In this document: one piece after another, positions 12,095 to 64,000 of the stretch
How the letters are laid out: every line of letters starts with the position of its first letter
How positions within the stretch are numbered: the first letter of the stretch is position 1
Source of the DNA: an uncultured Flavobacteriaceae bacterium
Lineage (GTDB): Bacteria; Bacteroidota; Bacteroidia; Flavobacteriales; Flavobacteriaceae
Direction of reading: 5' to 3'
Assembly: GCA_937923515.1 (NCBI GenBank)
Contig: CALDUF010000026.1
Location: forward strand, 1-64,000
DNA length: 64,000 bases
Made by a program: the position numbers and the translations under genes
Notes under the pieces: model-generated
What the model saw: only the letters and a program-made list of their open reading frames with translations
Told to the model about the DNA's origin: nothing
The model's database searches: none

Positions 12095-12807
12095 AATGTA
12101 GTTATAGAGTACGCTTTGTAACATACGAGCGCCACCCAATAATTGCCATTTGGAATTTGTTTGCCTTAGTTAAATCTAATTTTCTTTTGGAATAACTAGG
12201 AAGCAACGTTTTATTTAACCGCGCTAAAAATTTAAAAAACTGCTTTTTCACATGTAACGTATTTATAACAAAAATAGTAAAACTTATTCTAGACTAAGTT
12301 TTACATTTTTTTTAGACTAAATACTTGATATAATTACGATAATTAAATCAACTAAAAATTTTGCAAGAGTTATCATGTGTTTTGGTTTTAAGGTTAATAT
12401 TATTGCTGAGTTTTCAATATATATATTAGCCAATGTGCTTACCAAATGTTTTTATAGAATTCGATGAATTTGAATATTGATTTGTAAGTAAAAAAATCAA
12501 AATGATTTCGATATTTACGTGACTTTCTTGTATGAAGTAATAAAATGAAACGTTAAAGCTTTAAATTGTTTCATTACGTAATAATTGTAGGTGTTTTTTG
12601 AATTGATTTTTAAAAACCAAGGCGCATTTTATTCTAAAACTTTAGTATTTGGAATATTTTATCTTTTTAAACTTTTAATATTATCCGTATTTCAAAAAAA
12701 GTTTCCAATACCAAGACGCAATCACTATTCTAACCTAATTACGTGTCTAAAACATGTATTTCATCGATAATATGCATTATATCGACGATATTTGTTAAAA
12801 ATATATG

Positions 12808-12865
12808 CATTTCATCGATTTATTATGTTTTTTATCGTCGTATTTCAATTCGGTTTCTATATTTG
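12808..12865 (+). promoter_or_regulatory. Candidate activator-dependent promoter: CATTTCATCG / TTTTTATCG direct repeat (20-bp period) and -7 element TATATTTG (12858)
   Basis: Same geometry as 55111-55168; further ATCGA copies upstream at 12763 and 12781. Confidence 0.55.
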
Positions 12866-12871
12866 AAGTGT

Positions 12872-13011
12872 ACTAAATAACATACTTTTTAGTTCAATGG
12901 ATTAATTAATTAATATTTGCATTATGATGTTGATGTGGAGACCCCAAATCTAGCACATAATATAAAAAGCAAATTAAGAAAGAACCGAGTTTGAGGGAAC
13001 TCGGTTTTTTT
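12872..13011 (+). ncRNA. Candidate ~140-nt small RNA or short-peptide mRNA between a putative promoter and a terminator
   Basis: Starts about 7 nt after TATATTTG and ends at a strong hairpin plus T tract; only a 9-codon ORF (12924-12953, MMLMWRPQI) is inside. Confidence 0.4.
12985..13011 (+). terminator. Rho-independent terminator
   Basis: CCGAGTT-TGAGGG-AACTCGG followed by TTTTTTT. Confidence 0.8.
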
Positions 13012-13603
13012 ATGGAATAATGCGAAATGTTAAGTTAATTCTAGGTGCTATTACTCGTTTTGTTTTAGGAATTTGATGTAACCAGTTTTCTTGCGTGGCA
13101 CCTTGCATTAAAAGTAAACTGCCGTGATTTAGAATTATTTTTTCTTTTAAAGACGCATCGTTTTTGTGTTTTAGATGGAACGGACGCTCTTCTCCAAAGG
13201 TAACCGACGCAATTATCGGGTGCTTACCCAACACCTTTTCATCATCCGCATGCCAACCATTACTATCTTTACCATCTCTATAAAAATTCGCTAGGCAACT
13301 CGTAAATTTTATATTTAAAGCTGTTTCAATAGCTGTTTTTATAATTTGCATATGGCCTTCAAAAGGTTTAGGATGCATTGTTATATTACTGTAAGAATAT
13401 GGTGTGGTATTGTTTGCGAAAAATGCGGTTAATCTGGGTTGATCATAAATTTTTCCAAATACTTTTATTTTGTCTTGCTGCCAAGGTATTTCGTTATGTA
13501 AAGCCTTTAAGTATTTGTCGGCTTCAGCGTTATTAAAAAAATTAGGGTAGTAAATAACATCAGCATCTTTTAAGTTTAAATCTTTAGCATTTATTAAGCG
13601 CAT
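13010..13603 (-). CDS. AlkB-family 2-oxoglutarate/Fe(II)-dependent dioxygenase
   Basis: 197 aa; NGWHADDEKVLGKHPIIASVTFGEERPFHLKHK and C-terminal RINLTFR, typical of AlkB-like proteins. Confidence 0.88.
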   Translation of the reverse strand: MRLINAKDLNLKDADVIYYPNFFNNAEADKYLKALHNEIPWQQDKIKVFGKIYDQPRLTAFFANNTTPYSYSNITMHPKPFEGHMQIIKTAIETALNIKFTSCLANFYRDGKDSNGWHADDEKVLGKHPIIASVTFGEERPFHLKHKNDASLKEKIILNHGSLLLMQGATQENWLHQIPKTKRVIAPRINLTFRIIP

Positions 13604-54983: not shown

Positions 54984-55110
54984 TTTTTTAATGTGTTTTC
55001 TTCTTAAAATTATTAATTTTAATAATGTTGATTATTCTTTCTTTTTAAAATTTAAACACGTATTTATGTATTTTATCGATTTAACACTATAAAATATTTA
55101 GAAATATTAT

Positions 55111-55168
55111 CATTTTATCGAAATAATTGGTATTTCATAGATAAATCTATTATTTTTGATTATATTGA
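55111..55168 (+). promoter_or_regulatory. Candidate activator-dependent promoter: CATTTTATCG / TATTTCATAG direct repeat (20-bp period) and -7-like TATATTGA (55161)
   Basis: Same offsets (0, +20, +44 from ATCG) as 12808-12865; further TTTTATCGAT at 55071. Confidence 0.55.
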
Positions 55169-56611: not shown

Positions 56612-58054
56612 ATGAGGAATTTTACTTGTATTTATATTCTTGTTTTTGCCTTAGCGTTGCTAACATCAACGCTTTCTGCGCAAGTTGTAATTAGCAAACC
56701 TAACTTAGGTTTTACGCAAGCTTGTGCTAGTAATAGCTTTAATAATTATGATGTAACGTTTTCTTTTTCACCTAACGGAAGTTTACAACCCGAAAATACT
56801 TTTATTGTAGAACTATCTGATGAGAGTGGTAGTTTTTCAAATGCTACAGTAGTATTTACATCAAGCGCAGGAACTATCACAACATCTCCTGCAACAATTA
56901 ATTTCTCAATTCCAACGGATACTTCAGGAGAAAATTATAAAGTAAGAATAAAGAGCACAGCACCAGCTGTAACTAGTAGTGCTTCAGATGCTTTTGCTGC
57001 GTATTATAAAGTACAGGATAGCCCATTCACCATTAATAATTTAATTGAAACTGCTGTGTTTTGTTCTGGCGGAAGTTATGTGTTAACTATCGATAATCCT
57101 GGGAGTGCCATGAACGATTCGCCGTTGCAATACCCAAACTTAACGTTTAATTGGTTTAGAGAAACCAGTGCCACAACTTCAGTTTTTGTAGCATCAGGCA
57201 ATAGTTTAGAGGTTAATAGTCCTGGAACATATTTTGTTGAAACCAACTATGGCAGTTGCACATCAAATTCGTTTTCAAATAGGGTTACAGTAAGTGAAGC
57301 AACATCAGGAACATTATCATCTTCTGTTAGTTCTAGCTTAGGTAATCCTTATTGTTCAGTAAACGGCCCTACGGTTTTAAGTGTAATTAACGGTAATAGT
57401 TATCAATGGTATAAGGATGATGTGGAAATTTATGGCGGTACAACCCAAACATACGCCACCAATGAGGCAGGAAATTATAAGGTAACCATAACTTTAGATA
57501 ATTGCGTAGCCACAGCATCTATTGATTTGGTGAATACTGATTTTACCAGCGAAATTGATGTAAACGATACCAATATGTTATCATCTGGAGACACTTTAAT
57601 GGTTAATGTTACCACTACAGCAGTTAACCCAGTATTTGAGTGGTTTAATGATAATGCGTTAATTCCAGGAGCAACAACATCTAGTCTTGAAGTAACCCAA
57701 CAAGGCAATTATAAAGTGATTATACAGCAAACTGAAGGTTGTAATGCGTCTCAAGAATTAACATTTGTAGTAAAAGAGCCATTTCCTGATGTAGCCAGCA
57801 TACCAAATCTTATTACACCAAATGGAGATGGTATTAATGATACTTGGGTTATTCCACAAGCATTTGTAAGTGGCACAAATACGCAGGTTATGTTAATAAA
57901 TACGCAAGGTAAAGTAGTTTTAAATACAACCGATTATCAAAATAATTGGCCAGAAACTGAATTGGATTTTAAAGACGTAACCCCAGTTTATTACTATATC
58001 ATAACAACATCAAATAAAAACACAACAAAAGGATCTATTACGGTTTTAAGATAG
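56612..58054 (+). CDS. T9SS type B sorting-domain (CHU_C, gliding motility-associated C-terminal) protein
   Basis: 480 aa; IPNLITPNGDGINDTWVIP...YYYIITTSNKNTTKGSITVLR. Confidence 0.9.
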   Translation: MRNFTCIYILVFALALLTSTLSAQVVISKPNLGFTQACASNSFNNYDVTFSFSPNGSLQPENTFIVELSDESGSFSNATVVFTSSAGTITTSPATINFSIPTDTSGENYKVRIKSTAPAVTSSASDAFAAYYKVQDSPFTINNLIETAVFCSGGSYVLTIDNPGSAMNDSPLQYPNLTFNWFRETSATTSVFVASGNSLEVNSPGTYFVETNYGSCTSNSFSNRVTVSEATSGTLSSSVSSSLGNPYCSVNGPTVLSVINGNSYQWYKDDVEIYGGTTQTYATNEAGNYKVTITLDNCVATASIDLVNTDFTSEIDVNDTNMLSSGDTLMVNVTTTAVNPVFEWFNDNALIPGATTSSLEVTQQGNYKVIIQQTEGCNASQELTFVVKEPFPDVASIPNLITPNGDGINDTWVIPQAFVSGTNTQVMLINTQGKVVLNTTDYQNNWPETELDFKDVTPVYYYIITTSNKNTTKGSITVLR

Positions 58055-58055
58055 A

Positions 58056-60740
58056 ATGAATAAATATCTATTATATATGTTTCTAATATTATGTACCATT
58101 CAGCAATTCCATTCTCAAGAGGATGTCGGTATTGTTGCTTTGGCACTACCAGTTAGAAACACTTTAAAATTTAATAGATATGCTGTTAACCCAACATTTA
58201 GTTTTGTGAGAGAACAACATAAATATTTAAGTTTTACAAATAAAAAACAGTGGGCACAGTTTAATGATGCTCCAAATACATATTTATTTAGTTATGCTGG
58301 CCGTTTTTCAGAAAATACGGGTGCTGGTATTAGTTTATTTCAGCAAGATTTTGGTGTATTAACAACCTTTGGAGGTATGCTTAATTTTGCCTACAATGCA
58401 AATTTAAGTAGAGAAAGTAATTTAACATTTGGTTTAAATATTGGTGCTTACCAAAGCGGATTGAATCAAGGTAAAGTTATAGTAAATACGCCAGATCCAT
58501 CACTTCAAAATACACCTTCTACATTTTTAATAACCGTAAACCCCGGAATTAATTATGGCACTGGCTTTTTAGATTTTGGTGTAGCCATACAAAATTTAGT
58601 ATCCTACAACATCACCGAATCTCAAATAATTGAAGACAATCCAGAACAAGGGCTGCAAGCGCACTTTATGTATACGGGATATGTTGAAACCAGAGGCTTT
58701 TTTGATGACAGTAAATTTTCAACACTTATTAGAAGTGAATTTAAGCAAGACCAAACAGTCATTTCTGGACTAGCGATGCTAAGTGTGCCTAAAGGTATTT
58801 GGGCGCAAGCGGGTTATAACACGCTATACGGTGCTTCTGCAGGTATTGGTATTAATATTACAAGCACTATTGCTTTTGAATATAATTACGAGCAATCCTT
58901 TAGTAATTTTTCTGAATTTGGAAGTTCTCATGAGGTCACTATAGCATATCGATTTAAAAATAAATACAGATATAATTATGGTGATGAAGATGAAGAACAA
59001 TCTGTTTTTAATACGAATAAAAGACATGCAAAGCCTAATAATTTAACCGATGCAGATAGAGAAAGAATAGCTGAAAGAAGAGCGGTATTAGCCGCAGAAC
59101 GAAAAGCAAAAGCTGAAGTAGAAAAAGCAAAAGTTAAAATTACTGATACTAACGCGCAAAATACTATTGCTCAAAATAAAACTGATGCTACGTTAGAATT
59201 AGAGGAAGAGTTAAAACTTAAGAAAGCACAAGAACAACAATTAAAAGCGGAAAACGAAAGAAAAAGAATTGAAGAAGAGGCGCGTTTAAAACAAGTGGCC
59301 ACTCAGAAAAAAATTGAGGCAGAAAAAGCAAAAGCCGAAGCAGAAGCACAACAAAAGCGTGATGCTGATATAAAAGCTGAAGAAGCACGTAAAATCGCAG
59401 AAACTAAAGCAAAAGCGGAGGCTGAAAAAGTAAAACAGTTAGCGCTTGAGGCACAACAACGTGAAAAAGAAGTCCGTGAAAAAGCTACAGCTGATAAACG
59501 TAGAGTTGAAGAAGAAAACCGTTTAAAATTATTAGAGGAAGCACAAAATAGAAAAGCGCAACAAGAAGCTAAAGCAGAACAATTAAGATTAGAAACAGAA
59601 GCAATTGCTAAAGCGCAAGAAGAAAAACGATTACAGCTGGTAGCGGCGCAAGAAAAAATTGAAGCCAAAGCTAAACAGAAAGCTGAAGCATTAGCGCGTG
59701 CAGAACGTGAAGCAGTATTAAAAGCCAAAGCTGAGAAAGAAAAGGCTCAAGCTAAAATTAAAGCGAAAGTAGAAGAAGAACGATTAAAAGAAAATGAAAT
59801 AGCAAAAAGTAATGCTGAAACGATTACAATTACCGAAGATGTTAGTGTAGAAAACCAACCTGAGGCAAACGATGACGCAGCTGTAGCACTAAAAGAAGTA
59901 TTAAAAGCTTCAAACGAAGCTACTAAAACTCAAAGTGAGTTAATAAAAAGATTAACCAGTAAAATTGTTGGAAAACAAAACGATTTAAATGATTTAAAGG
60001 AGGAAAACGATTTAAGCGAAAAAGGAATTTACCTAGCCCCAAAACCATTTAAAAGTCTATCTGCTGAAAATGCTGAAATAGAATCTTTAAAAGATGAAAT
60101 CGCTAAAATAGAAGAAGCCCAAAATATTAAAGTGGTGGAACTAGAAGCATTGATAATTAAAAGAAAAAGAAAATTCAGGAAAGATACTGAGGGTATCAAT
60201 CAATTTTATTTTGATGCATTAGCGCAAATAAAAACGGAGCAGTTAAACATTAAAAGTACTAAAGAACGATTAGTCTCTAATTTAGTTCAGATAAAAGAAA
60301 AAACTGATTTTGAAAGAAAACGTAGAATTCGTCGTGCTGCTTATGATAGTCAACAGGATAGGTTTAATAAAGATAAAGCAGCTTTAGAACGTATTAAAAA
60401 ATTCACCGAAATAGATAAAGAAGCACTAAAAGAAGAAGATTTTGATTTTGGAGAAGCGCAAACTAAAAATATTCAAATCATAAAAAATGTATTAAATGAA
60501 GCATCGGGATATTACATCGTACTAGCTGTTCATAATAGTGTTGAAAAGCGAGATGAATTCCTTACTAAAGTAGTTGCTTCAGGAGAGCAAAATGTAAACT
60601 TCTTTTTTGATGTAAGTACAAATAAATATTTTATTTACTATGAAAAATATGATACTATAAGTCAAGCAAAAAATGCCTTAGATAAAAAAGGAAACAAACC
60701 CTATAATAGCAAAATGTCACTTGTAAAAATAGATAACTAG
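58056..60740 (+). CDS. PorP/SprF-family T9SS outer-membrane protein fused to a long Ala/Glu/Lys coiled coil and a SPOR-like C-terminus
   Basis: 894 aa; N-terminal RNTLKFNRYAVNPTFSFVREQHKYLSFTNKKQW barrel region; ~residues 330-600 low-complexity EAKAKAEAE; C-terminal ASGYYIVLAVHNSVEKRDEFL. Confidence 0.8.
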   Translation: MNKYLLYMFLILCTIQQFHSQEDVGIVALALPVRNTLKFNRYAVNPTFSFVREQHKYLSFTNKKQWAQFNDAPNTYLFSYAGRFSENTGAGISLFQQDFGVLTTFGGMLNFAYNANLSRESNLTFGLNIGAYQSGLNQGKVIVNTPDPSLQNTPSTFLITVNPGINYGTGFLDFGVAIQNLVSYNITESQIIEDNPEQGLQAHFMYTGYVETRGFFDDSKFSTLIRSEFKQDQTVISGLAMLSVPKGIWAQAGYNTLYGASAGIGINITSTIAFEYNYEQSFSNFSEFGSSHEVTIAYRFKNKYRYNYGDEDEEQSVFNTNKRHAKPNNLTDADRERIAERRAVLAAERKAKAEVEKAKVKITDTNAQNTIAQNKTDATLELEEELKLKKAQEQQLKAENERKRIEEEARLKQVATQKKIEAEKAKAEAEAQQKRDADIKAEEARKIAETKAKAEAEKVKQLALEAQQREKEVREKATADKRRVEEENRLKLLEEAQNRKAQQEAKAEQLRLETEAIAKAQEEKRLQLVAAQEKIEAKAKQKAEALARAEREAVLKAKAEKEKAQAKIKAKVEEERLKENEIAKSNAETITITEDVSVENQPEANDDAAVALKEVLKASNEATKTQSELIKRLTSKIVGKQNDLNDLKEENDLSEKGIYLAPKPFKSLSAENAEIESLKDEIAKIEEAQNIKVVELEALIIKRKRKFRKDTEGINQFYFDALAQIKTEQLNIKSTKERLVSNLVQIKEKTDFERKRRIRRAAYDSQQDRFNKDKAALERIKKFTEIDKEALKEEDFDFGEAQTKNIQIIKNVLNEASGYYIVLAVHNSVEKRDEFLTKVVASGEQNVNFFFDVSTNKYFIYYEKYDTISQAKNALDKKGNKPYNSKMSLVKIDN

Positions 60741-60777: not shown

Positions 60778-63700
60778 ATGATTGAAATAGAAAAACAAAC
60801 ACCTATGAGAATGCCTACTTATGTTTATAACTGTATTATCGCATTAGTGCTCTTAATGAGTACGCAGTTATTTGCGCAAAATTTAGTGCCATTTGCTCCA
60901 AGATATGATGAGGCTATTAAAGGAGATATGCTTTTAATAGGTAACAGTAATGTTGGGTTACATATTACCAATCCATATAATGGCAACAATACTAACGATA
61001 GGGTAGATGCAGCTGTTTATGTAGATGTAGATAACGACCCCACAACATTTAATTCCAGTACAGCAAACTTAGATGTACCAAGTGATACAGATTGTTATCA
61101 AATTGTATATGCAGGTTTGTATTGGAGCGCTGTGGTGAACGGCGATGAACCTATATCTAATATAAAATTTAGAACTCCAGGCAACCCATATCAAGACATT
61201 ACAGGAACGGAGATATATTTTCAAAATGCAGCTAATGATCAGAATTCAAACACCTATGTTTATTTTCATGATGTAACAGATGTGTTGACGGCTTTACCAA
61301 ACCCAGAAGGTACTTATGGTGTAGCAAATATATCTTCATTAGTAGGGCCAAAGCCAAATTCTGAAGGATTATCTGCGGGTTGGTCGCTTTTTGTGATTTA
61401 TGAAGACCCTTTATTACCAAGTAAATATATTACGTCTTTTGATGGTTTTACTAAAATAACAGGTGTTGTAAATGAAACGTTTGATGTGTCTGGTTTTGAA
61501 ACTATTCCAGTAGGACCAGTGCGCGCAAAGTTTGCATTTAGTACTATTGAGGGAGACAGACGCTACACAGGAGATTACTTGGAATTAAATGGTAATATTA
61601 TTGACGCTACTGATAATACTGGAACTGTAATACGCCCTGGTAATAACTTTTTTAATAGCACAGTATCTATAATAAACCCCGCTACAAATACACCAGAGTT
61701 GTTTTTTGACAGAACGCCTGCGGGTACAAATACCTTAGGGTTTGATGCCGGTATTATAAATATTCCAAATGCAGGAAACAGTATTATTGGAAATGGCGAT
61801 ACCACTGCACAAATAAGTTTGGGGAGTAATCTAGATCTCTATTATTACTATTTTAGTGCATTTGCAATTGATATTATTGCCCCAAATATTGTATTAACTA
61901 AAGTGGTTGAAGATGAGTTTGGTAATAATATAGAGGGTCAAGAAGTAGATTTAGGTGATGAGTTAAACTATGTTATTGGCTTTGAAAATACAGGTAACGA
62001 TGATGCTACGAACCTAACCATTCGTGATATTTTACCAATAAACGTAGTTTTCAATTATCCTACAGATATTGTATCGCTACCAACAGGTGTAACGGTGCAA
62101 AGTTATGACGCTGCAACTAGAGAAATTGTATTTAGCGTAGATCGTTCAATTGTTGAGGAAAATGATCCTGTTCAATCTATACGTTTTAGAGTAACGGTAG
62201 TATCAGATTGTAGTTTACTTACCGATGCATGTTCAAACATTATAGATAACCAAGCTTTTGCAACGTATCAGGGAACTATAAATCCAGATTTCACAATTTC
62301 AGATGATCCAAGTTTTAACAGTAATACTGGGTGTTTAATTACACCAAGAGCAACAAACTTTTTAGCAGATTTAAATTGTACGTTTAATGAAAATGTAGTG
62401 CTTTGTGGTGATACTACAACATTAACTGCTGGTAACGGTTACGATTCGTACACTTGGTCTACCAATCCAAGTATGACACCAGTTATCGGAACAGGACAAT
62501 CTATTACAGTAACCGCAACGGGTACGTATTATGTGTACAACGCAGCAGTAGCACCATGCCAATCTATAACCCAACAATTTGATGTAACACTGTTTGGAGC
62601 CAATGTTACAAACCCAGTTATTCCTTTTGCTGATGAGGTTGTAGTGTGTACTAATGATGGAAAAGAATTGCCAAATATTTTCTTATGTGGTGCTAACGAT
62701 TCAAGGTTCATCCAAACAAACATTACCGATGCAACTTCTATAATATGGGAAGTTTTAAATACGACTAGTTGTGATGCCGTTTTAAATCAAGATTGTGCAA
62801 ACGAGAGTGATACCTGTACTTGGAATGAAGTTGCAACAGGACCAAATTATACTGCGGATACGGCTGGACAATACAGATTAACGTTGAATTATGATGGTGG
62901 TTGTTTCAATCAGTTTTACTTCAATGTATATGAAAACCTTTTAGTCCCAACGGTAAACTCAAGAGATATTATTTGTACCACATCAGGCGAAATTACAGTT
63001 GGTGGTGTACCAACAGGATACGAGTACAGTATTGATGGCACTAACTATCAAGGCAGTAATACATTTGCAGTTAATACAGCTGGCATCTATTCAGTGTATA
63101 TAAGACAAGTAGGTGTAACACCAAACCCATGTATTTTTACAGTACCTGATGTTCAAATTAGAGAAAGAGATTTTACGGTGCAAACTACGGTAGCACAGCC
63201 CTTGTGTTATGGTGCATTAGGCAATGTAGTTTTAGCAGCTAATGACGCGCGACCACAATATTTCTTTTCAATTTACGATGGTACAACTCTTGTAAATAGC
63301 GTTGGCCCAATAGCAGATGATAATTATACGTTCGAAAATTTAAATACTGGTACATATACTGTAAACGTATCTACCGAAGATGGTTGTACGTTTACCCGCG
63401 ATATTGAAATTATACAACCGCCATTACTAGAGGCAACATCAGCATTAACTAAACCTTTAACGTGCACCAATGGTGAAATAACTGTGTATCCTGTGGGTGG
63501 AACTGCACCCTACTATTATTTTATTAATGGCGCAACAACTTTTCAAAGTACACCAATAATTGATGTGCCAACAGCAGGAACATACACCATTAGAGTTGTA
63601 GATTTTAATAATTGTGAAGCTGAAACTACTATTGATGTAGATGCCATTCCTGCTCCAGATTTTACAGTATCACAAACTAATATTTTGTGTGCCGATGCAC

Positions 63701-64000
63701 CAGATAGCGGTTCAATTACAGTAAATGTTTCTAACCCCAACGGAAACACTTTACGTTATAGTATTAATAATGGTACTACATATCAAAATTCACCAAATTT
63801 CACAAATGTAACCGCAGGAGATTATGCCATTATTGTTGAGTATACTTTAGATGCTGATGTGTGTTATACAGCACCACAACCTATTACAATAACAACAGCT
63901 ACAGCTATTAATGGTATAGTGACACTAACTTCTCCTTATACCTGTACGAGTGATGGTATAATCACTGTTTCAAACGTTACAGGAGGAACAGCGCCTTATC
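60778..64000 (+). CDS. Large surface adhesin (SprB/CHU-like repeat protein), truncated by the window end
   Basis: Open frame from ATG 60778 to the window end without a stop (signal peptide ALVLLMSTQLFAQ; DUF11-like IVLTKVVEDEFGNNIEGQEVDLGDELNYVIGFENTGNDDATNLTIRDILP; repeats such as CTNGEITVYPVGGTAPYYYFINGATTFQSTPIIDVPTAGTYTIRVVDFNNCEAET). Confidence 0.88.
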   Translation, partial: MIEIEKQTPMRMPTYVYNCIIALVLLMSTQLFAQNLVPFAPRYDEAIKGDMLLIGNSNVGLHITNPYNGNNTNDRVDAAVYVDVDNDPTTFNSSTANLDVPSDTDCYQIVYAGLYWSAVVNGDEPISNIKFRTPGNPYQDITGTEIYFQNAANDQNSNTYVYFHDVTDVLTALPNPEGTYGVANISSLVGPKPNSEGLSAGWSLFVIYEDPLLPSKYITSFDGFTKITGVVNETFDVSGFETIPVGPVRAKFAFSTIEGDRRYTGDYLELNGNIIDATDNTGTVIRPGNNFFNSTVSIINPATNTPELFFDRTPAGTNTLGFDAGIINIPNAGNSIIGNGDTTAQISLGSNLDLYYYYFSAFAIDIIAPNIVLTKVVEDEFGNNIEGQEVDLGDELNYVIGFENTGNDDATNLTIRDILPINVVFNYPTDIVSLPTGVTVQSYDAATREIVFSVDRSIVEENDPVQSIRFRVTVVSDCSLLTDACSNIIDNQAFATYQGTINPDFTISDDPSFNSNTGCLITPRATNFLADLNCTFNENVVLCGDTTTLTAGNGYDSYTWSTNPSMTPVIGTGQSITVTATGTYYVYNAAVAPCQSITQQFDVTLFGANVTNPVIPFADEVVVCTNDGKELPNIFLCGANDSRFIQTNITDATSIIWEVLNTTSCDAVLNQDCANESDTCTWNEVATGPNYTADTAGQYRLTLNYDGGCFNQFYFNVYENLLVPTVNSRDIICTTSGEITVGGVPTGYEYSIDGTNYQGSNTFAVNTAGIYSVYIRQVGVTPNPCIFTVPDVQIRERDFTVQTTVAQPLCYGALGNVVLAANDARPQYFFSIYDGTTLVNSVGPIADDNYTFENLNTGTYTVNVSTEDGCTFTRDIEIIQPPLLEATSALTKPLTCTNGEITVYPVGGTAPYYYFINGATTFQSTPIIDVPTAGTYTIRVVDFNNCEAETTIDVDAIPAPDFTVSQTNILCADAPDSGSITVNVSNPNGNTLRYSINNGTTYQNSPNFTNVTAGDYAIIVEYTLDADVCYTAPQPITITTATAINGIVTLTSPYTCTSDGIITVSNVTGGTAPY

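Follow-up and report, generated by a model that had tools for sequence, protein, structure and literature searches.

What turns on the genes for gliding adhesins in Bacteroidota? To our knowledge, little is known about this, and the question is raised by a SprF/SprB-type adhesin operon of the type IX secretion system (T9SS) that lies in the 64,000 nucleotides of flavobacterial DNA analyzed here (the window). A preliminary description of this DNA had proposed that the operon shares its promoter geometry with a short orphan transcript, here treated as an sRNA, and that both are controlled by a common regulator with two sites spaced two helical turns apart. Sequence comparison across a large clade of marine flavobacteria indicates that the repeat pair in these promoters probably defines the regulon of a single LytTR-type regulator, which is itself very conserved. 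The features involved are listed in Table 1.

Table 1. Repeat units, promoter boxes and genes in the window (A, B and C, repeat units; B+n, n bp after unit B).
Feature	Position	Strand	Evidence or remark
Upstream repeat copy TATTTCATCG, sRNA promoter	12757..12766	+	Within R1 match 12749-12774
Unit B GCATTTCATCGA, sRNA promoter	12807..12818	+	GTTAAAA starts 13 bp upstream
Unit C, sRNA promoter	12827..12838	+	Alignment of sRNA loci
-7 box TATATTTG, sRNA promoter	12858..12865	+	B+51 or +52 in 17/17 loci
Conserved sRNA with covarying intrinsic terminator	12870..13012 (ends inferred)	+	72/200 Flavobacteriaceae genomes
Unit A, upstream repeat copy TATTTTATCGAT, operon promoter	55069..55080	+	Precedes unit B by about 41 bp in most operon orthologs
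Unit B TCATTTTATCGA, operon promoter	55110..55121	+	Mean column identity
Unit C GTATTTCATAGA, operon promoter	55130..55141	+	20 bp after unit B; mean column identity
Conserved -7 box TATTTTTG (TAnnTTTG), operon promoter	55151..55158	+	B+41 in 14/15, B+42 in 1/15 orthologs
-7 box of the preliminary description, TATATTGA	55161..55168	+	Not conserved
First operon gene, 440 aa	55203..56525	+	ORF and ortholog search
480-aa protein with T9SS type B sorting domain	56612..58054	+	CHU_C, Bac_Flav_CTERM
894-aa PorP/SprF family protein with long coiled-coil-like extension	58056..60740	+	PF11751, TIGR03519
Large adhesin-like (putative SprB-type) gene	60778..64000, runs past the window	+	ORF of at least 1074 aa

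The Repeat Element Upstream of the Adhesin Operon

The operon is recognized as a SprF/SprB-type T9SS adhesin operon by a TIGR03519 match above cut-off, followed by the adhesin-like ORF of at least 1074 aa. Its first gene does not have a match in Pfam or NCBIfam. Upstream of this gene, the repeats CATTTTATCG (55111) and TATTTCATAG (55131) are found where the preliminary description placed them, as are the strings CATTTCATCG (12808), TTTTTTATCG (12828) and TATATTTG (12858) in the sRNA promoter, and the interval of 20 bp from repeat to repeat is indeed the same in both promoters. A third copy, TATTTTATCG, is present at 55069, 42 bp upstream of the copy at 55111. In operon orthologs, unit A is typically located about 41 bp before unit B and unit C at B+20; weaker units are seen in two or three of the more distant orthologs (L057, L059, L061). 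The pair itself, GTATTTCATCGA with a second copy at +20, has been retained by 15 of the 16 operon orthologs, and the sRNA loci likewise keep it.

The string TATATTGA at 55161, which had been read as the -7 box of the operon, is present. Among the 15 operon orthologs retaining the element, a TAnnTTTG sequence occurs at B+51 in none and in a loosened form in five, and the box at 55161..55168 is probably not the promoter. In 12 orthologs from the same genus, the mean column identity amounts to 0.80, 0.88 and 0.97 for units A, B and C, respectively, and to 0.95 for the box at B+41, compared to 0.70 for the originally designated box and 0.52 further upstream. Because of these column identities and the offsets in the orthologs, the -7 box of the operon is placed at 55151-55158, and the spacing therefore differs from that of the sRNA promoter by 10 bp, i.e., one helical turn. 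The claim of an identical distance between repeats and -7 box does not hold: the box follows unit B by 41 bp in the operon and by 51-52 bp in the sRNA promoter. The first geometry is shared by the adhesin operon and the promoter of the candidate regulator itself (see below), the second by the sRNA and a 40-aa ORF, so that the repeats lie just upstream of the promoter in either case, as in LytTR-type operators. In the operon promoter, 9 bp separate the end of unit C from the -7 box.

The sRNA and Its Promoter

Each of the 12 same-genus genomes searched has retained the sRNA together with its promoter, and both are also conserved in five further genera. Unit C can be recognized at B+20 in nearly all of the 17 aligned sRNA loci, but is unclear in L030 and L032. 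The sRNA core is additionally found in at least 80 named genomes, including those of Winogradskyella, Psychroserpens, Algibacter, Lacinutrix and others; Flavobacterium species are absent among the matches listed. Judging by these records, the window comes from the same family, Flavobacteriaceae. Of the 77 loci from named genomes that were scored, 73 have TAnnTTTG at B+51 or +52; the remaining four read 102, the script having apparently taken an upstream copy. Outside these 77, two loci are without a recognized box and one has too little flanking sequence.

In the terminator, pairs including 12987-13002 and 12990-12999 vary on both sides across sequences, and the middle part of the sRNA is closed by an invariant TTTGC/GCAAA helix. 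An Rfam search of the window returned two tRNAs only, leaving the sRNA without a family at gathering score. As a separate observation, the stretch TTTTTAGTTCAATGGATTAATTAATTAATATTTGC within 12870-13010 is nearly invariant in 76 distinct sequences and is predicted to be mostly unpaired.

Conservation Versus Chance Resemblance

In AT-rich intergenic DNA, similar repeats might arise by chance. The pair occurs twice in the window and in none of the Markov-simulated windows, which places it beyond chance. When the pattern is searched with at most one mismatch throughout the assembly (2.71 Mb, 88% complete, 136 contigs), nine matches are obtained against 14 for the reversed control. Since the loose pattern is not enriched genome-wide, resemblance alone is insufficient and conservation carries the case, namely the in-register conservation over 15 operon orthologs. 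The sRNA and small-ORF promoters keep the element in register as well.

Further evidence is provided by a model, R1, which was trained only on the promoters of the sRNA and the 40-aa ORF, with those of the operon and the regulator held out. In whole-genome searches, R1 locates the operon promoter in nine related genomes (G008, G011, G002, G003, G010, G009, G005, G006 and G007) with per-genome E-values of about 1.4e-5 to 6.5e-3, which are rough according to the tool's own note. It yields 52-67 matches at E<=5 in same-genus genomes and on the order of 6-28 in genomes of other families. In the window, the two best places correspond to the sRNA promoter, a training member, and the third (55062-55084, E 0.038) and fifth (55103-55136, E 0.43) to the operon promoter, whose copy in the window is therefore weak. 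Given the held-out matches and the simulations, chance similarity is considered extremely improbable and was ruled out.

Arrays of three similar repeats, spaced about 20 bp apart, are also seen at about 1501-1550 in L001 and about 1470-1530 in L007; they immediately precede a SixA-like phosphatase gene and a GldK-like gene, the orientation being opposite at the latter. The array on contig C25 before the SixA-like gene was set aside for its limited promoter room before the start codon and its low R1 scores.

A Candidate LytTR Regulator

Six LytTR genes are present in the genome, and the repeat pair is found upstream of just one of them and not upstream of the other five. This gene (G000:C98:949-1641) encodes a response regulator of 231 aa with a receiver domain (PF00072) and a LytTR domain (PF04397), both above cut-offs. 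It is situated between the divergent rpsF-rpsR-rplI genes and priA, gene names being read from the sequence, and a kinase gene was not found in its 1.5-kb flanks. In the promoters of its clade orthologs, the pair is highly conserved and followed at B+41 by TACTATTG, one mismatch from TAnnTTTG, which matches the geometry of the adhesin operon; unit B is degenerate here, reading ACAGTTTACCGA in most orthologs. In the present genome, R1 detects the regulator promoter at an E-value of 0.0017 over 149 kb.

Within the clade, the regulator is 92-100% identical, compared to 42-63% in the outside genomes measured; for ribosomal protein L9, the corresponding ranges are 72-97% and 66-78%. The regulator (L076-L092) is more conserved than L9 and S6 inside the clade and less than both outside. 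In a survey of 200 Flavobacteriaceae, the sRNA and a regulator of at least 87% identity occur together in 71 genomes. Discordance is limited to one genome each way, both incomplete assemblies, which makes 71 of 73 concordant, and the remaining regulator matches have at most 72% identity. As this co-occurrence follows a clade, the Fisher value overstates independence, and the association may partly stem from common descent. Most genomes contain further LytTR regulators.

The Proposed Regulon

We propose, with a probability of roughly 0.7, that the element is a LytTR-type operator and that the regulator of 231 aa binds it and activates the adhesin operon, the sRNA, other genes and itself. The operator would consist of ATTTCATCGA in two direct copies, 20 bp or about two helical turns apart, upstream of a Bacteroidota TAnnTTTG promoter. 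The orphan response regulator is the most likely binder and, once bound, would activate the SprF/SprB-type operon together with the sRNA, as well as several genes for small and secreted proteins and its own gene, presumably under the control of phosphorylation. A one-turn shift between the two geometries would leave the bound activator facing the same side of the helix. Recurrent promoters with the element precede the sRNA, the 40-aa ORF and a gene for a secreted protein whose sequence resembles leucine-rich repeats; small cysteine-rich proteins, a CAP-like lipoprotein (in an inverted arrangement) and several secreted proteins are also encoded behind it. Target names outside the Pfam and NCBIfam results are a reading of the sequences. 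The 40-aa ORF, MATNLPEQPTKKESKFKETLSEQIRFVKGFLYLTKKIFML, has no match in Pfam or NCBIfam, and its conservation behind the element is observed in L138, L004, L039-L043, L139, L144 and L149. Of the regulation initially suggested, the shared regulator with two sites two turns apart, linking sRNA and adhesin operon, is well backed by phylogenetic footprinting, by the held-out model and by a plausible regulator gene, and the identical geometry had to be abandoned.

The operator could be shared and yet be served mainly by another LytTR protein, or by an unrelated binder of direct repeats, with the C98 gene merely a target. Regulators can themselves be regulated by others, and the six LytTR genes come from an incomplete genome from which more are perhaps missing. 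We nevertheless consider this unlikely, as the five other LytTR genes lack the upstream pair and the C98 regulator, the only LytTR gene compared in this way, tracks the sRNA. Somewhat less doubtful, although still improbable, is that the regulator represses its targets or has opposite effects at the two geometries. Autoregulation is often negative, and unit C of the operon lies near the -33 region or overlaps it. On the other hand, no class has its sites over the start, all of them being situated upstream of the -7 box, and a shift of one turn suits an activator acting from the same face.

Comparison with Known Systems

The proposed activator and its sites resemble known LytTR systems. LytTR sites comprise two repeats of 9-11 nt with a spacer of 11-13 nt (PMC4847170). 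This layout is found in the sRNA, small-ORF, adhesin and regulator promoters, in which core repeats of 9 nt are placed 20 bp apart, leaving a spacer of 11 nt. The E. coli regulator YpdB recognizes GGCATTTCAT in direct repeat (PMC4847170), and its yhjX operator has in common with the present one the direct repeat core CATTTCAT and a regulator with receiver and LytTR domains (PMC4847170). Here, however, the repeat is longer by CGA and recurs after 20 bp, there are many targets including an sRNA, and a kinase gene is absent from the 1.5-kb flanks of the regulator. The best NCBIfam match of the regulator is E. coli BtsR (NF008677, E 1.3e-34), but its score of 119.6 bits falls short of the cut-off of 246, and the regulator was therefore rejected as a BtsR equivalog. 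AgrA and ComE-type regulators likewise use a pair of direct repeats that are about two turns apart and precede the promoters they control, and AgrA controls an sRNA. They differ in the repeat sequence, and peptide quorum-sensing genes were not seen beside the present regulator. ComE is the relative solved at full length (4cbv).

Among adhesin operons, remFG-sprCDBF of F. psychrophilum similarly contains SprF-type and SprB-type genes (PMC9723704). The promoters reported for it are sigma-54 (SM4) and SM5 (PMC9723704), whereas the present promoter combines TAnnTTTG with LytTR-type repeats. Rfp18 of the same species, which affects proteases (PMC9723704), is by its description a conserved flavobacterial sRNA like the present one.

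A Leader Motif and a Possible RNA Layer

In the set of 35 non-sRNA elements, from which CAP-lipoprotein loci were excluded, an exact CCCAAATC is found within 120 nt downstream in eight cases and upstream in none. With one mismatch, the counts are 16 downstream and two upstream; several of the 35 elements are orthologous and therefore not independent. The motif usually follows the element by about 30 nt, near the expected transcription start, and the sRNA holds it internally at 12943-12952. Genome-wide, CCCAAATCWA alone is weakly enriched (26 versus 19 in the control). It is also observed that CCCAAATC lies near the expected mRNA 5′ end in L138, L144, L145, L297, L300 and L312, in the same sense everywhere, the sRNA included, and that the leader of the 40-aa ORF carries two CCCAAATC-like copies. 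As a speculative extension with a small chance of being right, a single clade-specific LytTR hub might control the adhesin operon, small proteins and the sRNA, with a second layer at the RNA level. Several mRNAs of the regulon would start near GUCCCAAAUC, and the sRNA, through its internal copy of the motif in the same sense, would serve as decoy for a shared factor, either a protein or an antisense RNA, that binds this motif.

Significance

Among the matches listed, at the level of titles and abstracts, we did not find an earlier report that connects LytTR regulators with gliding or with Bacteroidota, or one of the repeat motif. A candidate regulator with its putative operator, and a set of targets open to testing, can now be named for many cultured marine genera, and an unannotated, conserved sRNA is tied to surface functions.
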